The notes under the pieces were generated by a model, which was not told the DNA's origin, did not search any database, and saw only the letters and a program-made list of their open reading frames with translations. Positions 1 to 14,419 of a DNA stretch of 15,328 nucleotides are shown here, in pieces. The position numbers and the translations under genes are program-made. Position 1 is the stretch's first letter. Each line of letters opens with the position of its first letter. Source of the DNA: Candidatus Aminicenantota bacterium (GTDB lineage: Bacteria; Acidobacteriota; Aminicenantia; Aminicenantales; Aminicenantaceae); contig JAUWTR010000005.1 in the NCBI GenBank assembly GCA_030614645.1, positions 1-15,328 on the forward strand, read 5' to 3'.

Positions 1-3000
1 AACCTATTCTTGATACAGCGAAAAACGGCCGGATCGACGCTCTCATGAAAAAACCGGTGGCCCCTGAGAACTTAAAAAACAAGATTGCTTACCTACTCGC
101 CAGACAATCGAAGGAAAAACGGGCAGGGATGCGAGTCAGTATTGAAAAGGCGACCCTGATTCAGATCGATGGAGAGTCAAACACGGAAATGGAGCTCGTC
201 AATATCAGCGAGAGCGGCATGTTCCTGCGAACTCATTCTCTTTATCCCCATGGCGTGATTCTTCCCTTCAAAATCGCTCTCCCTGATGGGAAGGAATACC
301 CCCTTTCGGGCCGAATTGTCCGCACCGATACCGATCAGGGCGGAGTTGGCCTAGCGTTCCTTACACTTGATGATAAGAGCCGGGTGGCCCTTATACAATC
401 CTTTTCCGATCATGTCACTATGCGTGACCTAAACAAGCTCAAGGAGCGGTATCCTTTCCTGAAGACGGATGAAATGATCCTTTTCAACGACACCCTAAAG
501 ATCGAATCCTTACTCCAGAAAGCCCTGAAGTCCAAGGTAGAGATTGCGACCATAAGGGCTCAGACGCAAACGGCTGAGAATCTTTCCTTTGCCGGAATTA
601 TGCCTTCTTTCTGCTGTGTACTCAAAGGAGATGGGCTAAACATCAAGTTTAAAACTTCCGACCTCATTTTTGTTTCATTTCAACTTGGCTATGCCACTTA
701 CAATTTCGAAACCATGGTCTATCGACTCTCCGCGGATGGGAAGCTGATGGACTGTCTTTTTCCGCGGGTCATGTTCTACTCAGAAAAACGAAACGAGAAA
801 AGAATTAACCACTTAGGGGACGTCTGTATAGAGATCCCTCTCCCAGCACCCTTTAACAAAAGTATCAAAGGCAGAATTACTGATATAACCCCCAGCGGGG
901 CAAGCTTTATTACTGATCGGGAAACCCCTGTGATGCTAAAAGGCACACCTCTCGAGAAGATTTGTATTCTTGAGGGTGACAATATCCTCTGGGAAGAGAA
1001 GGGAGAGGTCCGTTATGTATTATGGAATGGAGATAAACCATCTAGGCAGGTGAAATACGGTATCCAGTTCGGTATTGGCCGGATGGGCATCCAAGCTGTA
1101 CAGGCTCCGGAAATCGACCCTAGTCATTCTGTTGAAGAGCATTCGGACGAAGAGAAAACCAAGCCTGTGATGAGGCGAACCGTAGGCCTGAACAAATTGT
1201 CCAGCAGAGCTCCCGAGATCATCCGGCTGGAAAACCAGCGTGGAGAAGAGATTGTCGGCCTTTTGAACTCCTCATTACCATTGGATGGAAAACCGGTTCC
1301 GGTTGTTCTTATCCCTCCAGCTTTCGGAAAGACCAAGGAAACGCTATTTTGCCTGGCCTTGACGCTCATTGAGAATTTTTTCCTCTTGGGAAAACCCATA
1401 GCTGTCATCCGTTATGACGGCATCCGGAGAAAAGGAGAAAGCTACAAAGATCCGGGAGCCAGCGAGCCACCCTTTGAGATGCTTAATGCCAGCACTAGCC
1501 AGGGTGCCGATGATATCAAAGCTGTGCTGGATTGGTTGTATCTCAATCCGAAACTCAAGGCAAGCTCTGTCATCCTCATCAGTTTTTCTTTGTCCGCTTT
1601 GGAAGCACGCGTGGTATTGCGGGATGAAACTTATCGCCGAAGGATAAACTACTGGATTTCCTGCATGGGAACATTGGAATTTCGGGATCTGATGAGCCGA
1701 ATCAACTGCGGTCTGGACTTGCTCGAGCAATACCAGCTTGGCATCAATCTAGGGGTAAGACCGATTTTGGGCAATCTCATCAGTTGTGAATCATATGCGT
1801 CTGATGTCGTCGCCAATGCTGTAGCGACCATCGATCAAGCTAGGGAGGACATTCGCCATTATGATATCCCAATCACTTGGATTTATGGCGAGCACGACAA
1901 ATGGATAAGGCCGGAATTCATTCGGGACATCATGAGCGTTCATGCCAGCGCCCCTCGCGAGGTCATTTCCGTATCGATCGGGCACAACGCCAGGACTTCT
2001 GATGAGGCTCTCCGCTTGTTCGGCACAGTCACCTCCCTAGTCCACCGGCACCTTTACCAGGGAATGATTCAACCATCCCTCCCCAATAAAAAGAATATGG
2101 AAATCATGCGCCGAGCTGAACAGGACAGGCTCCCATCCCGAAATCTCAGAAATCGGAGGGACTACTGGCAGCGTTATTTGGTGGGTGAAAAAGACTTCAT
2201 GGGTTTTGATATCATGGGCATGTCAGATGATTACCAAAAATTTATGCATGACCAGTTGCAGGCCTTAGAACTTAGGCCCGAAGACCGGCTGCTTGACTTA
2301 GGCGGCGGAACGGGAATTTTCGCTGAGCATTTTTTAGAGAATGGACAGTCACTCCCAGCTCACATCACTATTGCTGACCTGATTCCCGAGGCCCTGAAAA
2401 AGGCCTCCGAGAAGCTCGCTTCCCGTTCCAGAATCATGCAGAAACACATGCAGTTTGATCTTATGTGCCTTGATTTTGAGCTGAGCCGATTCCTTCCTGT
2501 GGAGCGTTTTCTGAATGGAGAGACCGCAAGCTTCAGAGAGCTGGCCGATAAGATTGAAAATTTGAACCTTGAGAGTGCCATTAAGATCCAGGATTCCTAT
2601 TCCCCTCGACTCCATCGTATTCTCAGAGGGCAGGCCATCAATCCAGCCCTTGACGACTGGTTGAAGGATCAGTTTGACCTGTACGAATACCAAACCATTG
2701 TTGACTTCAACCAGGTTGTCAGGTATATAAGGGGACTTGTAGAAGAGAAACCCTCTTTTCGAAAGCTCGCCTTTCCAGGAGAGCTGGAAGCAAATCTCCA
2801 TCTTCCGGTCAAGCCGGGTTTTTATAATAAAATACTGATGAGTCTTGTTCTCTCCTATATCTTCAATCCCGTCGAAACCCTTTTTGAGGTCAAACGGATC
2901 CTCAAGCCTGGAGGCCTACTTGTACTTTCAAGTATGCGTCCTGACACGGACTCCTCGGGCCTGTTCACAAAGCTCTTAGACAAAATCGAGGTTATGCCAG

Positions 3001-3242
3001 CTGAAGAGTTTTCTACGAAGTGGCCCAAGCCGCGGATCCTCGAATCCATGCGGTCCTTTCTTAACGACGCCCAAGCTCTGGTGGACCTCGAGGAGGCAGG
3101 GACTTTTGATTTCTTCGATCCGGAAAAGCTCAGCGGTTTGCTGGAAGAGTCGGGATGGGAAAGCATCCGGACCATTCCAACCTTCGGGGATCCTCCGCAA
3201 GGCTATATTATCGTAGCAAAGGTGAGGAAAACAAATGGCTAG
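1..3242 (+). CDS. REC-PilZ-PilZ-LuxD-like hydrolase-methyltransferase fusion protein (5' partial)
   Basis: Residues are numbered from the first ATG at 45. The frame is open to the window edge with no Shine-Dalgarno before that ATG. The upstream codons plus residues 1-20 read like the end of a receiver domain (the K-P pair after beta-5, then a final helix), so the true start is probably upstream. PilZ 1 (about 26-120) has R26xxxR30 and N53xSxxG58. Residues 140-245 resemble a YcgR-N-type domain. PilZ 2 has R249xxxR253 and D280xTxxG285. Both should bind c-di-GMP. Residues 395-672 form an alpha/beta hydrolase whose order of motifs matches bacterial luciferase acyltransferase LuxD: VIRYDG, a SFSLSA elbow (Ser515), Asp618 and His647. 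Residues 690-1062 are a class I SAM methyltransferase (DLGGGTG at 751-757, RILKPGG near 951) with an insert of about 120 residues. No signal peptide or TM segment is seen, so it is likely cytoplasmic. It overlaps the next gene by 8 nt. The substrate is unknown. Confidence 0.87.
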   Translation, partial: PILDTAKNGRIDALMKKPVAPENLKNKIAYLLARQSKEKRAGMRVSIEKATLIQIDGESNTEMELVNISESGMFLRTHSLYPHGVILPFKIALPDGKEYPLSGRIVRTDTDQGGVGLAFLTLDDKSRVALIQSFSDHVTMRDLNKLKERYPFLKTDEMILFNDTLKIESLLQKALKSKVEIATIRAQTQTAENLSFAGIMPSFCCVLKGDGLNIKFKTSDLIFVSFQLGYATYNFETMVYRLSADGKLMDCLFPRVMFYSEKRNEKRINHLGDVCIEIPLPAPFNKSIKGRITDITPSGASFITDRETPVMLKGTPLEKICILEGDNILWEEKGEVRYVLWNGDKPSRQVKYGIQFGIGRMGIQAVQAPEIDPSHSVEEHSDEEKTKPVMRRTVGLNKLSSRAPEIIRLENQRGEEIVGLLNSSLPLDGKPVPVVLIPPAFGKTKETLFCLALTLIENFFLLGKPIAVIRYDGIRRKGESYKDPGASEPPFEMLNASTSQGADDIKAVLDWLYLNPKLKASSVILISFSLSALEARVVLRDETYRRRINYWISCMGTLEFRDLMSRINCGLDLLEQYQLGINLGVRPILGNLISCESYASDVVANAVATIDQAREDIRHYDIPITWIYGEHDKWIRPEFIRDIMSVHASAPREVISVSIGHNARTSDEALRLFGTVTSLVHRHLYQGMIQPSLPNKKNMEIMRRAEQDRLPSRNLRNRRDYWQRYLVGEKDFMGFDIMGMSDDYQKFMHDQLQALELRPEDRLLDLGGGTGIFAEHFLENGQSLPAHITIADLIPEALKKASEKLASRSRIMQKHMQFDLMCLDFELSRFLPVERFLNGETASFRELADKIENLNLESAIKIQDSYSPRLHRILRGQAINPALDDWLKDQFDLYEYQTIVDFNQVVRYIRGLVEEKPSFRKLAFPGELEANLHLPVKPGFYNKILMSLVLSYIFNPVETLFEVKRILKPGGLLVLSSMRPDTDSSGLFTKLLDKIEVMPAEEFSTKWPKPRILESMRSFLNDAQALVDLEEAGTFDFFDPEKLSGLLEESGWESIRTIPTFGDPPQGYIIVAKVRKTNG

Positions 3243-5796
3243 AAAAGACCTTGCATTTGAAGAACGGCTTTATGACGAATATGATCTAAAAAGAAGAACG
3301 AGGATCATCATCATTCTAAGTGCAATCCTCTATCTCAGCTTCCTGGTTTTGGATGCAATCTACGCTGCCAAGTTTTTCCAGTTACTTCTTATTATTCGAC
3401 TGATAGTTTTATTCGCCCATGTCGTTCTTTTCTTCCTGATAAGCCGTGTCCATACGAATCACGGTTATGTAAAGCTTGCAATTGCCTTGACCATATTTGA
3501 TGTAGCAGGTATTGCTATCATGATCCAGATCCTGGGTGGATTTGTGACGATGTATGTTCAAGGGTTGTACCTCATCATCATGGGAATGGTCGTTGTTGTC
3601 CCTCTCGTTTTCCGGATAACCACAATCCTTTATATCATGATCTGGGCGAGCTATACCATTCCAGGCTTAATCAATATGCAAAGCGGAAACTTAGGATGGC
3701 GCGATATTTTCACCAACTTCTTTTTTCTATCTTCTATTGTAATCATTGGCATTTTTGGCTCATACATAATGGACAGCATCCGTCGTCGTGAGCTTAACAG
3801 CCGCACTCAGCTCGAAGAAACATCAGCTCGGCTCCAGGAGTCGAACGCCAAGCTAAAAACTTTGGATGAACTAAAAACTCAGTTTTTTGCCAATGTCAAT
3901 CATGAGTTGAGAACTCCTCTTACTCTTATGATGGCCCCTCTGGACCCTTTGATAGCTGGCCAGATGGGGAAAATTTCAGTTAAAAACAAAAAAACACTAT
4001 CAACAATAAAACGGAATGGTTTTAAGCTGTTAAAACTAATAAACAATTTACTGGACCTGAGTAAGTTAGAAGAAGGGAAAATGCGGCTTAAAATTAAAAC
4101 AATAGATTTTGTTGAATACATCAATTCTTTGCTTGCGTCGGTCAAACCTCTGGCAGATAACAAAGATATCAAGCTTTATTTTCAGCATCCTTCCCAAAAG
4201 CTGAAGATGTCGGTCGATCCTGATCAGTTTGAAAAAGTCGTTTTAAACCTGCTTTCAAATGCAATAAAATTTACACCGGAAAACGGGAGGATAACGGTTT
4301 TTATTGAAGAGGATAAAAGCAAAATAGCCCTGATTGTTGAAGATACAGGCAGGGGAATCCCTAAAGATATGCTCAAGACCATATTCGACCGTTTTTCCCA
4401 GGTCGATGGTTCTTTATCACGATCCCATGAGGGAACCGGTATCGGCCTTTCTCTCGTCAATGAGATCGTTAAGGTTCATGGGGGCAAAGTCCATGCTGAG
4501 AGCAGACAAGGAAAAGGCGCAAAATTCATTGTTGATCTGAAAAAAGGAGACAAGCATTACCCGGCTTCAATTCTTGACCGCAGGATCAAAGACCGCCCTG
4601 GCACATTTAAGAAACGAGCAACTGATGAGGAGGATTTAAAGGTGCAGGATGTTGTTTCAGACTTTCGCAACCTGCAGTTAGTTGACGTGGAAAGAGTAGA
4701 TGTTGACGAAAGTACTGTTGAGGTGGATAAAAGCCATGAGCATCTCATTTTGGCTATTGATGATAATCCTGAAGTGCTAAAACTGATGAAAATATTGCTC
4801 CAGGATGAATATGCTCTTGAGCTTAAATTGTCTGCTGAAGAAGGGATAAAGGTTATGCGGGAAAAGAAACCGGATCTTGTCTTGTGTGATGTAATGATGC
4901 CTGGTATGGATGGCCATGCTTTTTGCAGGAAAGTCAAAAGCGATGAGTGGATGAAGCATATTCCAGTGCTCCTGGTGACAGCTCGGGCAGGTTCGGAGAT
5001 GATGGCCCAGGGTATTGAGTCTGGAGCTGATGATTATATCGCCAAACCATTTGATTCTACCGAATTAAAAGCCAGGATTCGATCGCTTTTGCGGATAAGA
5101 CAGGCTGAGTCTGAGTTAAGCCTGGCCAACCAGAATTTAAAGATGTATAAAAAGGACCTGATCGAAAGGCAGCAGTCTCTTTTTGTGTCAATGATAAAAT
5201 CTTTGGTCTCAGCAATTGATGCGAAGGATGAATATACCCGTCATCATTCGGCCCGGGTTACAGATCTATCACTTAAAATAGCTGAAAAAATGGATTTTAA
5301 TAAGAAAGAATTAAAAAACCTCGAACTTGCTTCGCTGCTGCATGATGTTGGTAAGATCGCGATTCCGGAAAGCATTTTGAACAAGGGCAACAGTCTGACG
5401 GATGAGGAATATACCGTAATAAAAGAGCATCCTGCTAGAGGTGAGAGTATCTTAAAGCCAGTAGTAGAATTAATAGAAGTCTCTAGAATCGTCCGTGCTC
5501 ATCATGAACGTTATGATGGGACAGGGTATCCTGATGGATTAAAGAGCCATGAGATTCCTGTGAGTGCTCGGATCATGGCACTTGCTGATACTTATGACTC
5601 TATGACTTCAGACCGGCCTTACCGGAAGGGAATGTCGCATAATTTTTCTGTTAAAGAAATTGTAAGCTTATCCGGCAAGCAGTTTGATCCAGAAGTAGTC
5701 GAGCATTTTATTGAAGTATCTAACGAATTACCCAGCGAAGAAGCAGAAAAAACAGGAACACTAGGATATATAGGAAAAGCAGAAAAAACAGAGTAA
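3235..5796 (+). CDS. Six-TM hybrid sensor histidine kinase / response regulator / HD-GYP phosphodiesterase
   Basis: Membrane signalling protein. Six hydrophobic segments (about 23-42, 48-70, 79-101, 108-126, 127-146, 159-180) form a sensor with little periplasmic sequence, then a short coiled coil (about 185-212). The HisKA H-box carries His223 (NHELRTP). The ATPase domain shows the N-box (Asn342), G1 (EDTGRGIP), F (FDRFSQ) and G2 (GTGIGLSLV) motifs. A receiver domain (about 503-620) has acidic D509/D510, phospho-acceptor Asp552 and Lys604. The C-terminal HD-GYP domain (about 645-830) has HD at 703-704, HHE at 756-758 and DGTGYP at 761-766, so it should hydrolyse c-di-GMP. All key residues look intact. 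The start overlaps the upstream stop (ATGGCTAG) and has AGGTGAGG about 9 nt ahead, so translation is probably coupled. The PilZ and receiver domains of the upstream partner make it a likely effector or phosphotransfer target. The ligand is unknown. Confidence 0.95.
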   Translation: MARKDLAFEERLYDEYDLKRRTRIIIILSAILYLSFLVLDAIYAAKFFQLLLIIRLIVLFAHVVLFFLISRVHTNHGYVKLAIALTIFDVAGIAIMIQILGGFVTMYVQGLYLIIMGMVVVVPLVFRITTILYIMIWASYTIPGLINMQSGNLGWRDIFTNFFFLSSIVIIGIFGSYIMDSIRRRELNSRTQLEETSARLQESNAKLKTLDELKTQFFANVNHELRTPLTLMMAPLDPLIAGQMGKISVKNKKTLSTIKRNGFKLLKLINNLLDLSKLEEGKMRLKIKTIDFVEYINSLLASVKPLADNKDIKLYFQHPSQKLKMSVDPDQFEKVVLNLLSNAIKFTPENGRITVFIEEDKSKIALIVEDTGRGIPKDMLKTIFDRFSQVDGSLSRSHEGTGIGLSLVNEIVKVHGGKVHAESRQGKGAKFIVDLKKGDKHYPASILDRRIKDRPGTFKKRATDEEDLKVQDVVSDFRNLQLVDVERVDVDESTVEVDKSHEHLILAIDDNPEVLKLMKILLQDEYALELKLSAEEGIKVMREKKPDLVLCDVMMPGMDGHAFCRKVKSDEWMKHIPVLLVTARAGSEMMAQGIESGADDYIAKPFDSTELKARIRSLLRIRQAESELSLANQNLKMYKKDLIERQQSLFVSMIKSLVSAIDAKDEYTRHHSARVTDLSLKIAEKMDFNKKELKNLELASLLHDVGKIAIPESILNKGNSLTDEEYTVIKEHPARGESILKPVVELIEVSRIVRAHHERYDGTGYPDGLKSHEIPVSARIMALADTYDSMTSDRPYRKGMSHNFSVKEIVSLSGKQFDPEVVEHFIEVSNELPSEEAEKTGTLGYIGKAEKTE

Positions 5797-5841: not shown

Positions 5842-7200
5842 TCAGTTCTTTTTCCAGTATTTTGAGGGATTTTTTTCTTCCCCATATCCACAGGCATTGT
5901 CTAGTTCCAGAACAATTTTATTGAGCGAGCTTGATTTAAAGCCGATTAAGCTGCGTGCTGCATCGTGCAGCCAGGATTCCGGTTTGTTATATGGGCAGAC
6001 ATAAATACAGGTGTTGCAGTCTGTCCCGTTTTCCTGCCAGTACTGATAACATTTGAAGGGGTCGATGGGCCACTTATAAACTCCGGGGTTGTTAGAAAAA
6101 ATTCGTTGTTCATATGTGCGAGGGCCTTCCATGATAGAGCCGCTGGGGCAGTGTTTTGTGCATTTCCCACATATTTCACAGAATTCAGTAGCCCCGAAAC
6201 TGATTGGACTATCCGGGATGAGGGGCATATCCGTAAATACTTTGCATATGCGGACTCTAGAGCCGAATTTGGGTGTTATTAGGAGGCCGTTGCGTCCAAG
6301 TTCTCCCAGTCCTGCGTCTACAGCGATAGGTATGCTGAGTGATGTGTCGTTTCCCTGCGGTAAGGCCATGTATCCGAGGCCCCGTATAAATTGAGCTAGG
6401 GTTCCGGCTGTTACGGCCATGCGGGAATATCCGTTTCCGGTTGCAGCAGCGGCGATACATGTAGGAGCGGCATCAGATGCATCTATGTCCATTTCCAGTA
6501 CCATAGCGATCACGTATTTACAGGATTCCGGGATAATGACCTGGTTATTTTCACTCAGTTTAACCGGTTCATCTGCATCTTTAATAAAAATGTCGGCTTC
6601 GACCGGGCCTTGTTGGTCCTTCCGCTCCTGTCTTCGATAAAAAGCTTTTGAGTAAACCCAGCGTTCATCCAATTTGGCTACTCCCACCATAGAGGCGCCG
6701 TAGAAAAGAGCGGCTTTTTTTATGATATCCGTTACTTCCCTAGGGGGAAGATCGTCCGGCTTCCAGGCAGGTAGATCATAAAGTGCCTTTCCCGGCCAGC
6801 TTCTGCTTGAGGTCCACTTGTAGAAGCTGTTGTTGTCTCCAGTCCATGATGCATGATTAAAGGAATAATCAAGCAGGGAATAGCCCGGATCTTTGTTTTT
6901 AATCCGCTGAAGTTCGGTTCCCTGGTATTGCTTTTCCATGTCTATGGTTTTCTGGTCCCAGTGCGAACGGCTGAACATGGTATCTTTTTCCACAAAGCGT
7001 TTGTACCTGGATGTATCCACCCTGTAAACAGGATTACCTATGGAATTTCGTTTTACCAGGAAACTGCCATATTGTTCCCGGGATGATAAAAATTCTGTGT
7101 TATTTGCCCGGCTTACGATTTTTACAGCAGGAAGTGTTAGGCCAGCAAGACCTGTGGCCTTTAAAAATTCCCGTCTCCGCATTTTTTTCTTTTCTGTCAT
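5842..7200 (-). CDS. Tat-exported reductive dehalogenase-like (RdhA family) corrinoid/Fe-S protein
   Basis: The N-terminus has a twin-arginine signal (RRREFLKATG at residues 8-17, then a hydrophobic stretch), so the folded protein is probably exported. Residues about 155-330 resemble the corrinoid-binding core of the RdhA/QueG family, including GELGRNGLL at 299-307. Two ferredoxin-type clusters follow: C341x2C344x2C347x3C351-P and C384x10C395x2C398x3C402-P. The spaced first Cys of the second cluster is typical of RdhA. The length (452 aa) fits. Family members reductively remove halogens from organohalides using cobamide and two 4Fe-4S clusters, but many RdhA-like proteins have no proven substrate. 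The start has AAGGAG 8 nt upstream. It is the last gene of the minus-strand run and converges on the kinase gene. No classical RdhB anchor gene is obvious, though a small two-TM frame lies two positions upstream. Respiratory dehalogenation is therefore inference only. Confidence 0.88.
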   Translation of the reverse strand: MTEKKKMRRREFLKATGLAGLTLPAVKIVSRANNTEFLSSREQYGSFLVKRNSIGNPVYRVDTSRYKRFVEKDTMFSRSHWDQKTIDMEKQYQGTELQRIKNKDPGYSLLDYSFNHASWTGDNNSFYKWTSSRSWPGKALYDLPAWKPDDLPPREVTDIIKKAALFYGASMVGVAKLDERWVYSKAFYRRQERKDQQGPVEADIFIKDADEPVKLSENNQVIIPESCKYVIAMVLEMDIDASDAAPTCIAAAATGNGYSRMAVTAGTLAQFIRGLGYMALPQGNDTSLSIPIAVDAGLGELGRNGLLITPKFGSRVRICKVFTDMPLIPDSPISFGATEFCEICGKCTKHCPSGSIMEGPRTYEQRIFSNNPGVYKWPIDPFKCYQYWQENGTDCNTCIYVCPYNKPESWLHDAARSLIGFKSSSLNKIVLELDNACGYGEEKNPSKYWKKN

Positions 7201-10002: not shown

Positions 10003-10656
10003 ATGAAGAATTTAAAATTAATTTTCTTGTTTTTGTTTTTGATTAGCTTTGTTTTCCCTCTCCAGACAGAAGTGGATGAAATAATGATCCCTGCAGATGC
10101 GCATGAAAAGGCTATTGCAGCGCTTAAAAAGCTTGGGCCTGAAAGAGGCGCAAAGAAAATCAATTCTCACAAGGTTAAGATCGACTTTCGCATGATTGAA
10201 ATTTTAGGGGTCATTCGTGGAATAGAAGCAAAAATTGAAAAGATCGAATCTGCCTTAAAAGATCTGAGTGCAAAAGAGACTGAAACTGAATTTCAGATCG
10301 AGCTTTCTGGAGATGTCCTTTTTGATTTTGATAAATGGGATATCCGCCCTGAAGCAGAAGAAGCCCTCAAAAATGTTGCTGAGGTTATCAATGCCAGTGA
10401 AAGCCCTAAAGTAAAGATCTCAGGCCATACCGACTCTAAAGGAGCAGATGATTATAACCAGCAGTTGTCTGAAAAAAGGGCGGACTCAGTAAAAAATTGG
10501 TTGAGAGAGAATTCAGAAGTGGATCCGAAAATAATTGAGACTTCAGGTTATGGTGAGTCCAAACCTATAGAACCCAATACAAACCCTGACGGTTCTGACA
10601 ACCCGGAAGGACGACAGAAAAATAGAAGAGTAGAAATAGTAGTAAAAAAGAAATAA
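10003..10656 (+). CDS. OmpA/Pal-family peptidoglycan-binding envelope protein
   Basis: The 217-aa protein has an N-terminal signal peptide (hydrophobic core at residues about 5-20) without a lipobox cysteine. A short helical region (about 65-93) could form a coiled coil. The C-terminal OmpA/MotB/Pal domain (about 98-216) follows, with the DVLFDFDKWDIRPEA start, SGHTDSKG (Asp144), LSEKRADSV (Arg159) and a terminal NRRVEI. Asp144 and Arg159 match the residues that bind diaminopimelate in family structures, so it should bind cell-wall peptidoglycan in the periplasm. There is no N-terminal beta-barrel, so it is a periplasmic or loosely anchored member rather than a porin. The ribosome site (AGAG) is weak, which suits coupling to the gene 16 nt upstream. 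Confidence 0.93.
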   Translation: MKNLKLIFLFLFLISFVFPLQTEVDEIMIPADAHEKAIAALKKLGPERGAKKINSHKVKIDFRMIEILGVIRGIEAKIEKIESALKDLSAKETETEFQIELSGDVLFDFDKWDIRPEAEEALKNVAEVINASESPKVKISGHTDSKGADDYNQQLSEKRADSVKNWLRENSEVDPKIIETSGYGESKPIEPNTNPDGSDNPEGRQKNRRVEIVVKKK

Positions 10657-11095: not shown

Positions 11096-13201
11096 ATGGC
11101 AGAAAATCTCTATGTTACTGCTACGGAATCAAAAAGCGGAAAATCACTCATTTCTCTTGGGCTTATGGAAATGCTCCTTAGAAATCTGGATAAGGTGGCA
11201 TTTTTCCGACCACTTATCAATGTCGATTCAGCAGGTTTTATAAAAGACCATGACCTGAATCTGATCTCAGAGTACTACAAGTTGGATATTCCCTATGAAA
11301 AGATGTATGGCTATACTCGAGCGGAAGCCGGCAGTCTTATATCCCAGGGGAAATACCAAGAACTTTTAGAAGGAATCGTGGAAAAATATAATGAATTGGA
11401 ACAGAAATGCGATTTTGTCCTGTGCGAGGGCACTGATTTTTCCGGTTCTACTTCAGCTTTTGAATTCGATATCAATGCGGATATAGCCAATAACCTGGGC
11501 TGCCCTGTATTGCTGGTTGCCAACGGCTTTAACAGAACTGCTAAAGAGACCATTCAAGCAATTGAAATGTCTCTTGAATCCCTGGGTGAGAAGGGATGTA
11601 ATGTGGTCTGCACCATTGTCAATCGAACTGACCGGGGCGGCAGGATCGTCAAGGAGATGAAAGAGACAGGGTTGACTGCGGATCAGTTAGTCTATGCTTT
11701 TCCGGATGTGAAGATGCTGGCTAATCCTACTGTTGGTGAAATTGCCCGCAGCTTAAATGCCAAGGTCCTTTACGGTGAGAACCTGTTGAACCGTCATGTT
11801 GAAAACTTCGGGGTGGCAGCCATGCAGTTGCGGAATTGTCTGAGTAGAATTGAAAACGGCGACCTCGTCATCACTCCGGGAGACCGGGCCGATATAATTG
11901 TTGCCTGTCTTTCTGCGCTTTCTTCCACTTCCATGCCTACCATTGCCGGGCTAATACTAACCGGGGGATTGCTGCCGGAGGAACCCATCAGGAAATTGAT
12001 CGAGGGTTTTTCAAATATTGTCCCCATTCTTAGTGTAAAGGAAAATACTTTTGAAGCTGCCCGGGAAGTGGATAATGTGCATGCTGTTATTTCTCCAGAC
12101 AACACCAGGAAATTGACTCAGGCTTTAGAGGTCTTTGAGAAGAATACAAACAGGGATGAGTTGCGGGAAAAAATTGTGCAGACAAAAATCTCTGTGGTCA
12201 CACCAAAGATGTTTGAATACCAGCTTCTCCAACGTGCCCGTTTTCCCAAACAACATATTGTCCTTCCGGAAGGAGATGAAGAAAGGATTTTGCAGGCTGT
12301 TGAAATTCTAACCCGCCGTGAAGTTGTTGATTTGACCTTATTAGGCTCTGAAAATAAGATCAAGAACAAGATATGTCAATTAGGGCTGCAGATGAATGGA
12401 ATCAAAATAATTGAGGTGCAAAACTCCGACTTGTTTGATGAATATGCCAGGACTTATTATGAACTAAGGAAGCAAAAGGGAATCACATTGGAAAATGCCC
12501 GGGATATTATGGAAGATCCCAGCTATTTTGGCACCATGATGGTGTATAAGGGGCAGGCTGATGGTATGGTTTCAGGCTCAATCCACACCACCCGCAACAC
12601 TCTTAGGCCCTCATTTGAGTTTGTCAAAACCAAACCGGGTTTCAAAACCATTTCAAGTGTGTTTTTTATGTGCTTGGCTGACAGGGTGCTTGTCTATGGA
12701 GACTGTGCTGTAAATCCAGAGCCTGATGCGAGGCAGCTGGCAGAGATAGCTATTAGTTCAGCTCATACAGCAAAGACTTTTGGCATAGAACCGCGAGTGG
12801 CTATGCTGTCTTATTCGACCGGGGAGTCCGGTAAAGGCGAGATCGTAGAGAAAGTACGCGAAGCTACCCGGATCGCAAAGGAGATTGCAGAAAAATCCTA
12901 TCCAGACTTAAAGCTTGAAGGTCCGCTTCAATATGATGCTGCTTTTGATCCGGAAGTTGCTAAGACAATGCTGCCTGACAGTGAAGTTGCCGGTAGAGCT
13001 ACTGTCTATATTTTCCCTGATCTAAACACTGGGAATAATACTTATAAAGCTGTCCAGAGATCAGCTAATGCCGTAGCTATCGGACCTGTACTTCAGGGGC
13101 TTAACCGTCCTGTCAATGATTTAAGCCGTGGATGTACAGTCCCGGATATTGTAAATACTGTTGCTATAACTGCAATTCAGTGCCAGGTGGATAAAGGATA
13201 A
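11096..13201 (+). CDS. pta: Phosphate acetyltransferase (long form, with N-terminal P-loop-like and DRTGG domains)
   Basis: Converts acetyl-CoA and phosphate to acetyl phosphate and CoA, in the cytoplasm. The 701 residues match the long, E. coli-like Pta (about 714 aa). An N-terminal dethiobiotin-synthetase-like P-loop domain (about 1-200; TATESKSGKS at 8-17) comes first. A DRTGG-type regulatory domain (about 213-330) follows. The catalytic PTA/PTB domain (about 372-698) has SGSIHTTRNTLRPSFEFVKT, a YGDCAVNPEPDARQLAEIA block, SYSTGESGKGE and a closing GPVLQGLNRPVNDLSRGCT. AAGGAG sits 8 nt before the ATG. Only 6 nt separate it from ackA, so the two form an operon giving ATP from acetyl-CoA (or running in reverse to activate acetate). 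The N-terminal domains probably allow metabolite control, as in enteric Pta. Confidence 0.97.
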   Translation: MAENLYVTATESKSGKSLISLGLMEMLLRNLDKVAFFRPLINVDSAGFIKDHDLNLISEYYKLDIPYEKMYGYTRAEAGSLISQGKYQELLEGIVEKYNELEQKCDFVLCEGTDFSGSTSAFEFDINADIANNLGCPVLLVANGFNRTAKETIQAIEMSLESLGEKGCNVVCTIVNRTDRGGRIVKEMKETGLTADQLVYAFPDVKMLANPTVGEIARSLNAKVLYGENLLNRHVENFGVAAMQLRNCLSRIENGDLVITPGDRADIIVACLSALSSTSMPTIAGLILTGGLLPEEPIRKLIEGFSNIVPILSVKENTFEAAREVDNVHAVISPDNTRKLTQALEVFEKNTNRDELREKIVQTKISVVTPKMFEYQLLQRARFPKQHIVLPEGDEERILQAVEILTRREVVDLTLLGSENKIKNKICQLGLQMNGIKIIEVQNSDLFDEYARTYYELRKQKGITLENARDIMEDPSYFGTMMVYKGQADGMVSGSIHTTRNTLRPSFEFVKTKPGFKTISSVFFMCLADRVLVYGDCAVNPEPDARQLAEIAISSAHTAKTFGIEPRVAMLSYSTGESGKGEIVEKVREATRIAKEIAEKSYPDLKLEGPLQYDAAFDPEVAKTMLPDSEVAGRATVYIFPDLNTGNNTYKAVQRSANAVAIGPVLQGLNRPVNDLSRGCTVPDIVNTVAITAIQCQVDKG

Positions 13202-13207
13202 TCGCTT

Positions 13208-14419
13208 ATGAAGATTTTAGTCATAAATACAGGAAGTTCTTCTATTAAGTATCAGCTCTTTGATATGAACAGGAAAAAAGCTTTAGTCACCGGACTGGCT
13301 GAAAAAATCGCTGAGGATACCAGCGTTCTTACGCATAATATTGTTAATAATAATGGGGATGCCCGCAAAAAAGTTGAAAATAAAAAAATTCCTGACCACG
13401 CTGAAGGCCTGAAAAGGATAGTTGAGCTATTGGTTGACCCTGAGTGGGGAGTTATTAAGAATAAATCTGAGATCACAGCTGTCGGCCACCGGGTGGTTCA
13501 TGGGGGAGAGTCCTTCAAGTCCTCCACTGTGATCGATGAACTTGTGATAAGGGCGATAAAGGAGAACATCCCTCTGGCTCCGCTGCATAATCCTCCAAAC
13601 TTGAAAGGAATAGAAGTGGCGCAGTCGATCTTTCCCGATGCTCCCCAGGTTGCCGTCTTTGATACAGCTTTTCACCAGTCGATTCCACCTAAGGCATATC
13701 TTTATGCGCTTCCTTATAAGTTGTACACCAAAAACCGGGTGCGGCGTTATGGTTTTCACGGCACAAGCCATGCTTTTGTGGCAGAGACTGCTGCTGAGTA
13801 TCTGAAAAAAATGTATACTAAGCTTAACCTGATAACTGTCCATCTTGGCAATGGCGCCAGTATGGCGGCAGTCAAAAACGGCAAGTGTGTAGATACTACA
13901 ATGGGGCTTACTCCGCTTGAGGGTCTGGTAATGGGAACCAGGTCAGGTGATATCGACCCTGCGCTTCCTTTTTTTTTAGCAGACAATCTGAATATGTCGC
14001 TTAAAGACATAGACCGGCTTTTAAATAAGGAAAGCGGTATGAAGGGGCTGTGCGGTATTAATGACATGCGGGAGGTCGAAGAAAGGGCGGAAGCTGGTGA
14101 TAAAAGAAGCCAAACAGCTCTTGGAGTCTATGCTTATAGGATCAAAAAATATATCGGAGCTTATTATGCTGCCCTGGGAAGGTTGGATGCAATGATTTTT
14201 ACCGCAGGTGTCGGAGAAAACTCACCTTTTATCCGCAGTCTTTGTTGCTCAGACCTGGAAGAGCTGGGAATATCTATCGATAAAGAGAAGAATGAGCAGC
14301 AGTGCAGAGATATACGGGAGATAAATATTTCCGGGGGAAAAGTAAAGATCCTAGTAATACCTACAAATGAAGAAAAGAGGATCGCTCAGGAAACAGAGCG
14401 GATAATAAATAGAAAGTAG
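13208..14419 (+). CDS. ackA: Acetate kinase
   Basis: Interconverts acetyl phosphate + ADP and acetate + ATP in the cytoplasm, completing the pathway begun by pta 6 nt upstream. The 403-aa length is normal for the family. The start INTGSSSIKYQLFD (Asn7) is the acetokinase phosphate-binding signature. Arg95 in GHRVVHGGE, Asp152 in FDTAFHQ, His184 in YGFHGTSH, Arg245 in MGTRSGDIDP and Glu389 near NEEKRIA correspond to the catalytic and substrate residues known from Methanosarcina acetate kinase (R91, D148, H180, R241, E384). The nucleotide-site motif HLGNGAS (212-218) and FTAGVGENS (331-339) are also intact. AAAGGAT provides the ribosome site. No clear terminator follows. Confidence 0.98.
   Translation: MKILVINTGSSSIKYQLFDMNRKKALVTGLAEKIAEDTSVLTHNIVNNNGDARKKVENKKIPDHAEGLKRIVELLVDPEWGVIKNKSEITAVGHRVVHGGESFKSSTVIDELVIRAIKENIPLAPLHNPPNLKGIEVAQSIFPDAPQVAVFDTAFHQSIPPKAYLYALPYKLYTKNRVRRYGFHGTSHAFVAETAAEYLKKMYTKLNLITVHLGNGASMAAVKNGKCVDTTMGLTPLEGLVMGTRSGDIDPALPFFLADNLNMSLKDIDRLLNKESGMKGLCGINDMREVEERAEAGDKRSQTALGVYAYRIKKYIGAYYAALGRLDAMIFTAGVGENSPFIRSLCCSDLEELGISIDKEKNEQQCRDIREINISGGKVKILVIPTNEEKRIAQETERIINRK

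Follow-up and report, generated by a model that had tools for sequence, protein, structure and literature searches.

We analysed a 15,328-nucleotide contig of Candidatus Aminicenantota bacterium (JAUWTR010000005.1, assembly GCA_030614645.1), which in its full length is referred to here as the window. It opens within a gene on the forward strand (3-3242), whose single open frame of 1079 residues runs in from the contig start and encodes a protein, hereafter the effector, that joins two PilZ domains, a hydrolase resembling LuxD and an S-adenosylmethionine (SAM) methyltransferase; a gene for a hybrid histidine kinase with an HD-GYP domain follows it on the same strand.

The effector gene and its domains

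Intact relatives of the effector are about 1181 residues long (for example P0001, 1181 residues), so some 100 N-terminal residues of the window protein are missing. The original prediction had begun the chain at the ATG at position 45; since relatives begin some 100 residues earlier, we judge this not to be the likely start. Residue numbers here count from nucleotide 3 and are those of the original prediction plus 14 (its Ser515, Asp618 and His647 are our 529, 632 and 661). The nearest relatives, 92-94% identical, are from Candidatus Aminicenantes. The domain order is receiver (REC, cut), PilZ, middle segment, PilZ, LuxD-like hydrolase and SAM methyltransferase, and the features, all on the forward strand (+), are as follows.

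3..110 (+), residues 1-36: end of the REC domain, cut by the contig start; REC is present in full-length relatives
120..398 (+), residues 40-132: PilZ domain 1, with RxxxR at 40-44 and NxSxxG at 67-72; PF07238, 51 bits, and motif counts
408..788 (+), residues 136-262: stretch linking the two PilZ domains, which may be a YcgR-type PilZN domain; alignment A7 judged by eye
783..1070 (+), residues 261-356: PilZ domain 2, with RxxxR at 263-267 and DxTxxG at 294-299; PF07238 and motif counts
1203..2120 (+), residues 401-706: LuxD-like alpha/beta hydrolase
1587..1589 (+): Ser529, nucleophile in the elbow SFSLSA, aligned with the first Ser of SLSA in 1tht; Ser in 130 of 130 rows
1896..1898 (+): Asp632, triad acid, aligned with 1tht residue 211 (counted in the alignment); Asp in 130 of 130 rows
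1983..1985 (+): His661, triad base, beyond the stretch aligned to 1tht; His in 130 of 130 rows
2118..3239 (+), residues 706-1079: class I SAM methyltransferase domain
2295..2315 (+), residues 765-771: SAM motif I, DLGGGTG; the Asp and three tested Gly invariant across all 130 rows
2472..2822 (+), residues 824-940: helical insertion between methyltransferase strands 3 and 4, from the secondary structure of the model; also in the divergent member described below
3235..5796 (+): histidine kinase-REC-HD-GYP gene; Pfam PF00512, PF02518, PF00072 and PF13487 all over cut-off

The effector alignment, for which the best 120 of at least 268 relatives matched among 8000 scored candidates were taken, has 139 rows; the duplicate loci L034, L035, L036, L038 and L042 were omitted, and the 130 rows below 98% identity were used for counts (the smaller alignments A1-A3 were built from 15 of 19 loci). 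The catalytic triad and the tested SAM residues are identical in all 130 rows, and every tested PilZ motif position carries an allowed letter in at least 128, so that this architecture is not a product of chance. The motifs on which the original prediction was built are thus all in place in the chain: RxxxR and (D/N)x(S/T)xxG in both PilZ domains, VIRYDG, SFSLSA and the triad Asp and His in the hydrolase, and DLGGGTG in the methyltransferase. A full-chain homologue search confirmed that the layout recurs, with the motifs conserved across the rows counted. The PilZ, hydrolase and methyltransferase parts of the original prediction therefore stand as observations, and to them must be added the N-terminal receiver, which is cut off here, and the adjoining HD-GYP gene, neither of which had been mentioned.

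The first PilZ domain scores well over the Pfam cut-off of 22.5 bits, and at a lax limit (E values up to 5) PilZ was matched at the position of the second in 15 of 15 sequences including the window, the best at 1.3e-8. On the strength of their sequence, the PilZ domains of the effector are predicted to bind cyclic di-guanosine monophosphate (c-di-GMP). The receiver of the relative P0053 matches PF00072 at 35.3 bits (cut-off 30.2), and precomputed PF00072 matches exist for many aligned relatives but not for P0001. Its phospho-acceptor position holds Asn in 99 of the 130 rows, Ser in 11, Asp in 11, Thr in three, Lys in one, a gap in two and other letters in three; the congeneric loci L021 and L022 both have Asn there, and in the window the position is cut off. 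Because the acceptor is usually not Asp, c-di-GMP rather than phosphate looks like the input of most members. The middle segment may possibly be a YcgR-type PilZN domain, the sole family support being a PF12945 match in the distant relative P0151 (residues 371-422; 17.6 bits, below the cut-off of 23). Its top sequence match among solved structures was a designed protein (E 0.0027), which we took as chance.

A conserved gene pair and its distribution

The downstream gene overlaps the end of the effector gene by 8 bases and encodes HisKA, HATPase, REC and HD-GYP domains behind what appears by eye to be an N-terminal membrane region. The residues expected of an HD-GYP phosphodiesterase (HD, HH and GYP) are present in the window and in 21 of the 21 covering rows of 25; likewise, the phosphorylated His, the N-box Asn and the receiver Asp, together with the HD/HH/GYP letters, occur in all covering rows (23 or 21 of 25). 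Searches with tblastn placed the kinase directly downstream and on the same strand in 25 of 30 loci, with -4 to +26 bases between alignment ends, and located it at loci L042, L036, L076, L075 and L083. Three of the five other loci end no more than 5 bases after the effector match and that of genome G238 no more than 17 bases after it; the fifth is the divergent locus of genome G008. The pairing accordingly holds at all 25 main-clade loci in which sequence extends beyond the effector, in 24 genomes, G021 having two copies (L023 and L027, on contigs C94 and C195, the second kinase cut by the contig end). Across the 94 genomes of the order, the kinase sensor region was found in 26, namely 24 main-clade carriers of the effector, G008 (on another contig) and G055; that is, in 24 of 27 main-clade carriers, the other three of which end at a contig edge, versus 1 of 66 non-carriers. 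The homologue in G055 (L091:8883-11294; 58.5% identity over 740 residues) has an M3 peptidase gene upstream.

The hydrolase domain (E 1e-10) was found in 28 of the 94 genomes of the order and in 13 of 396 drawn from the phylum, the latter being members of the order and G238, which belongs to another family. At the G238 locus (L085:3-2666, reverse strand) the elbow reads SFSLGA instead of SFSLSA, and the methyltransferase is cut by the contig end. A methyltransferase match adjoins the hydrolase at 28 of the 30 hydrolase places of the order, the two exceptions being the place in G443, which lies at a contig end, and a piece in G010. None of the 94 genomes had the methyltransferase (E 1e-40) without the hydrolase. 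In G043, G010 and G458 the methyltransferase match crosses one TGA, which we take as the profile overrunning the end of a shorter protein. Candidate stand-alone relatives (32 proteins with the hydrolase as query, 76 with the methyltransferase) were set aside, since by their length and short contigs most look like cut or split parts of the fusion. P0205, with 409 residues, 30% identity and the methyltransferase part only, may be a true split of the fusion (8 contigs, the longest of 35,566 bases). The family seems wider still, since PilZ and the first part of the hydrolase also occur in the fragments P0150 and P0151, labelled at source as Desulfobacteraceae and Elusimicrobia. As for mobile elements, the divergent protein as query gave no plasmid match, and none was confirmed in viral contigs.

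That divergent protein, from G008, has 1182 residues, is 28% identical over the longer matched part and starts with PilZ, with no REC match. Used as query against the 396 phylum genomes, it gave 12 matches at E 1e-30, all in previously known carriers. Its gene overlaps by one base with the next, which encodes an AMP-binding enzyme (PF00501 at 175.5 bits) that among NCBIfam models scores best against long-chain-fatty-acid--CoA ligase (183.8, below the cut-off of 476); 288 bases beyond lies a gene for a B12-binding radical SAM protein, which runs off the contig. Contig C19 of the same genome carries the remainder of a gene starting with the same 16 residues, HKIQSMGIGIFGAFMI; directly after it comes a kinase relative (35% across 825 aligned positions). 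The two contig ends match inexactly, at 47 of 55 bases, and both contigs share another short stretch elsewhere. The order in G008 is thus likely effector, acyl ligase, radical SAM and kinase/HD-GYP, with the contig join predicted. No match to the G008-type ligase was found in the other genomes of the 94 (E 1e-30).

A putative c-di-GMP-gated acyl enzyme

The window hydrolase matches PF02273 (Acyl_transf_2, the LuxD family) at 24.4 bits, over the cut-off of 20.3. Among solved structures only LuxD is significantly related to the hydrolase profile (E 1.2e-6, the next at 0.28), and it is also the top match of the predicted fold, 6.6 Z units above the next entry. Sequence profile, predicted fold and Ser-Asp-His triad therefore all agree with the LuxD-like assignment originally proposed, and the predicted fold of the region is LuxD-like. 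LuxD itself (PF02273, NF052253, 1tht), a myristoyl-acyl carrier protein (ACP) thioesterase/acyl transferase of bioluminescent bacteria, shares with the effector hydrolase the SLSA elbow, the aligned Ser and Asp and the fold. Unlike LuxD, the effector hydrolase is fused to PilZ domains and a methyltransferase, and LuxE was found in only one of the 29 carrier genomes searched. By its family relationship, the hydrolase would act on an acyl substrate.

The methyltransferase matches Methyltransf_23 (46.2 bits, Pfam cut-off 27) and is of class I, with a Rossmann-like fold, the glycine motif I and, conserved in all 130 rows, an acidic residue (Asp792) following strand 2. Its NCBIfam scores in the window are 39.2 for DVU_1556, 35.7 for BioC and 35.5 for UbiE; the BioC model (TIGR02072, cut-off 184.95) is the best model of the divergent member, at 42.3. 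By fold its neighbours are N-, O- and C-methyltransferases of a generic sort, and neither sequence nor fold comparisons favour a substrate class. Since many class I enzymes resemble the domain about equally, the substrate cannot be read from similarity.

We consider the effector to be a c-di-GMP-gated acyl-thioester hydrolase or transferase to which a methyltransferase is tethered and which has a c-di-GMP phosphodiesterase of its own as partner, and give this reading a probability of about 0.5. The domains with their intact motifs, the kinship to LuxD and the conserved pairing of the two genes are established computationally. Binding of c-di-GMP to the PilZ domains would alter the activity of the attached catalytic pair, whose two members may cooperate to yield a methylated product. 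The downstream histidine kinase is probably membrane-located, and its own receiver would control the HD-GYP phosphodiesterase, so that a drop in local c-di-GMP, set off by a signal perceived there, would switch the effector, in a direction that is likewise presumed. A more specific and rather tentative version is a one-protein switch, in which c-di-GMP would directly control the making of a methylated acyl molecule, such as a methyl ester signal or a methyl-branched lipid: PilZ would gate a LuxD-like release of acyl groups from a carrier protein together with tethered methylation, and the paired kinase/HD-GYP protein would erase c-di-GMP. The fatty acid methyl ester suggested originally would be one candidate product among several.

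Several observations weigh against this proposal. The second PilZ domain of the window scores only 18.5 bits by itself, below the Pfam cut-off of 22.5. The hydrolase is only 17-18% identical to 1tht and scores 25.1 against the NCBIfam LuxD equivalog NF052253, whose cut-off is 420; in the divergent G008 member, moreover, the LuxD Pfam model reaches 18.0, below its cut-off of 20.3, and the serine-hydrolase model FSH1 reaches 21.6, just above its cut-off of 21. An acyl-ligase gene lies beside one divergent member only, and G055 keeps the kinase while the effector was not found there. Finally, the missing LuxE and a LuxC match over cut-off not found in 25 of the 29 carrier genomes, many of them incomplete, make a Lux pathway with LuxC and LuxE unlikely. 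None of the matches that do occur (LuxE in one of 29, LuxC in four) shares a contig with the effector gene, and those to LuxC need not be LuxC, because the model also matches in 9 of 14 control genomes, including Escherichia coli. The only adjoining pair of LuxE- and LuxC-family genes among the 29 carriers lies in the congeneric genome G002 (contig C48, 41183-43620).

Among other explanations, it is unlikely that the catalytic pair acts on something other than a fatty acyl group, such as a membrane component or the ester of an aromatic compound or a sugar: LuxD stands clearly above the alternatives in both profile and fold, and the divergent member adjoins a gene resembling fatty-acyl ligases. 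Rather unlikely, too, is that a fatty acid or 3-hydroxy fatty acid is released by the hydrolase and methylated at its carboxyl by the methyltransferase, giving a fatty acid methyl ester that is perhaps a signal. The co-occurrence of the two domains at 28 of 30 places, with no genome holding the methyltransferase alone, would suit this scheme, as would the presence of the carboxyl methyltransferase BioC among the nearest models, albeit far below its cut-off; against it, DVU_1556 outscores BioC, UbiE scores about the same and the fold neighbours are generic.

We regard as improbable a writer and eraser arrangement, suggested by analogy, in which the methyltransferase would esterify a carboxyl of a lipid, an ACP-bound acid or a protein, the hydrolase would remove the ester and c-di-GMP would set the balance. 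There is a precedent in BioGC of Bacteroides fragilis, which is active on pimeloyl-ACP methyl ester and replaces E. coli BioH and BioC (PMC3494674). The window hydrolase, though, matches LuxD-type models only (E values up to 0.1, in libraries whose inclusion of a BioG model was unchecked), BioH reaches 17 bits against a cut-off of 206.95 in the divergent member, and the neighbours run through Pfam, a minority of the total, included no recognised biotin gene. Control mainly through phosphorylation of the receiver by the downstream kinase, with PilZ serving as dimer or docking parts, would fit the adjoining kinase gene and the acceptor Asp kept in 11 of 130 rows (four of them loci L031, L039, L040 and L041), but is very improbable given Asn, Ser or Thr at that position in 113 rows, a divergent member that starts with PilZ and lacks a REC match, and near-invariant PilZ motifs.

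Neighbouring genes and known systems

Elsewhere in the window, the gene at 5842-7200 (reverse strand) is reductive-dehalogenase-like (TIGR02486, 249.4 bits over 160.35; PF13486 also over cut-off), and its product has an MRRREFLKATG-type start that by eye resembles a Tat (twin-arginine translocation) signal. The gene at 10003-10656 (forward strand) encodes a protein with an OmpA-family C-terminal domain (PF00691, 85.5 bits), and 11096-14419 (forward strand) holds two adjoining genes which, from their sequences, we take to be phosphate acetyltransferase (long form) and acetate kinase.

Effectors of c-di-GMP are chiefly concerned with motility, polysaccharide, secretion and gene expression. We know of no fusion of PilZ to a LuxD-type domain. 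The original prediction had named no described protein with this layout, and a literature search likewise found no description of the architecture among its top-ranked matches, with most subscription journals beyond its reach; nor did it find a paper combining PilZ and LuxD, or one mentioning both Aminicenantes and c-di-GMP. Every part is of a known kind, while the combination has no description in the literature searched. PilZ effectors such as YcgR, BcsA and MapZ have the same RxxxR and (D/N)x(S/T)xxG motifs, and in them too a PilZ input either is joined to an output or acts upon one. The target of MapZ is the methyltransferase CheR1 (PMC12564702, PMC7288161). MapZ is a separate adaptor of a chemotaxis methyltransferase, whereas here PilZ, hydrolase and methyltransferase form one chain.

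The B. fragilis BioG-BioC protein and the BioH/BioC pair likewise combine an alpha/beta hydrolase with a SAM methyltransferase, in one chain in BioGC; they differ in that the accessible text of the source names no PilZ for them (PMC3494674) and in that BioC and BioH models score far below cut-off here. BioGC shows that a hydrolase-methyltransferase chain can use ACP-bound acids, and that its domains need not act in consecutive steps (PMC3494674). The downstream gene, for its part, has the HisKA, HATPase, REC and HD-GYP residues of hybrid histidine kinases with a receiver and HD-GYP output, and differs from them in forming a conserved gene pair with a PilZ enzyme.

If the proposed reading is correct, a single-chain link from c-di-GMP to acyl-thioester hydrolysis and methylation would constitute a new output of this second messenger, in an uncultured lineage. 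The tentative one-protein switch, if true, would link second-messenger signalling with acyl chemistry, no transcription step lying in between, and the conserved pairing with a phosphodiesterase-bearing sensor kinase would make of the two genes a compact, testable signal-to-lipid circuit.

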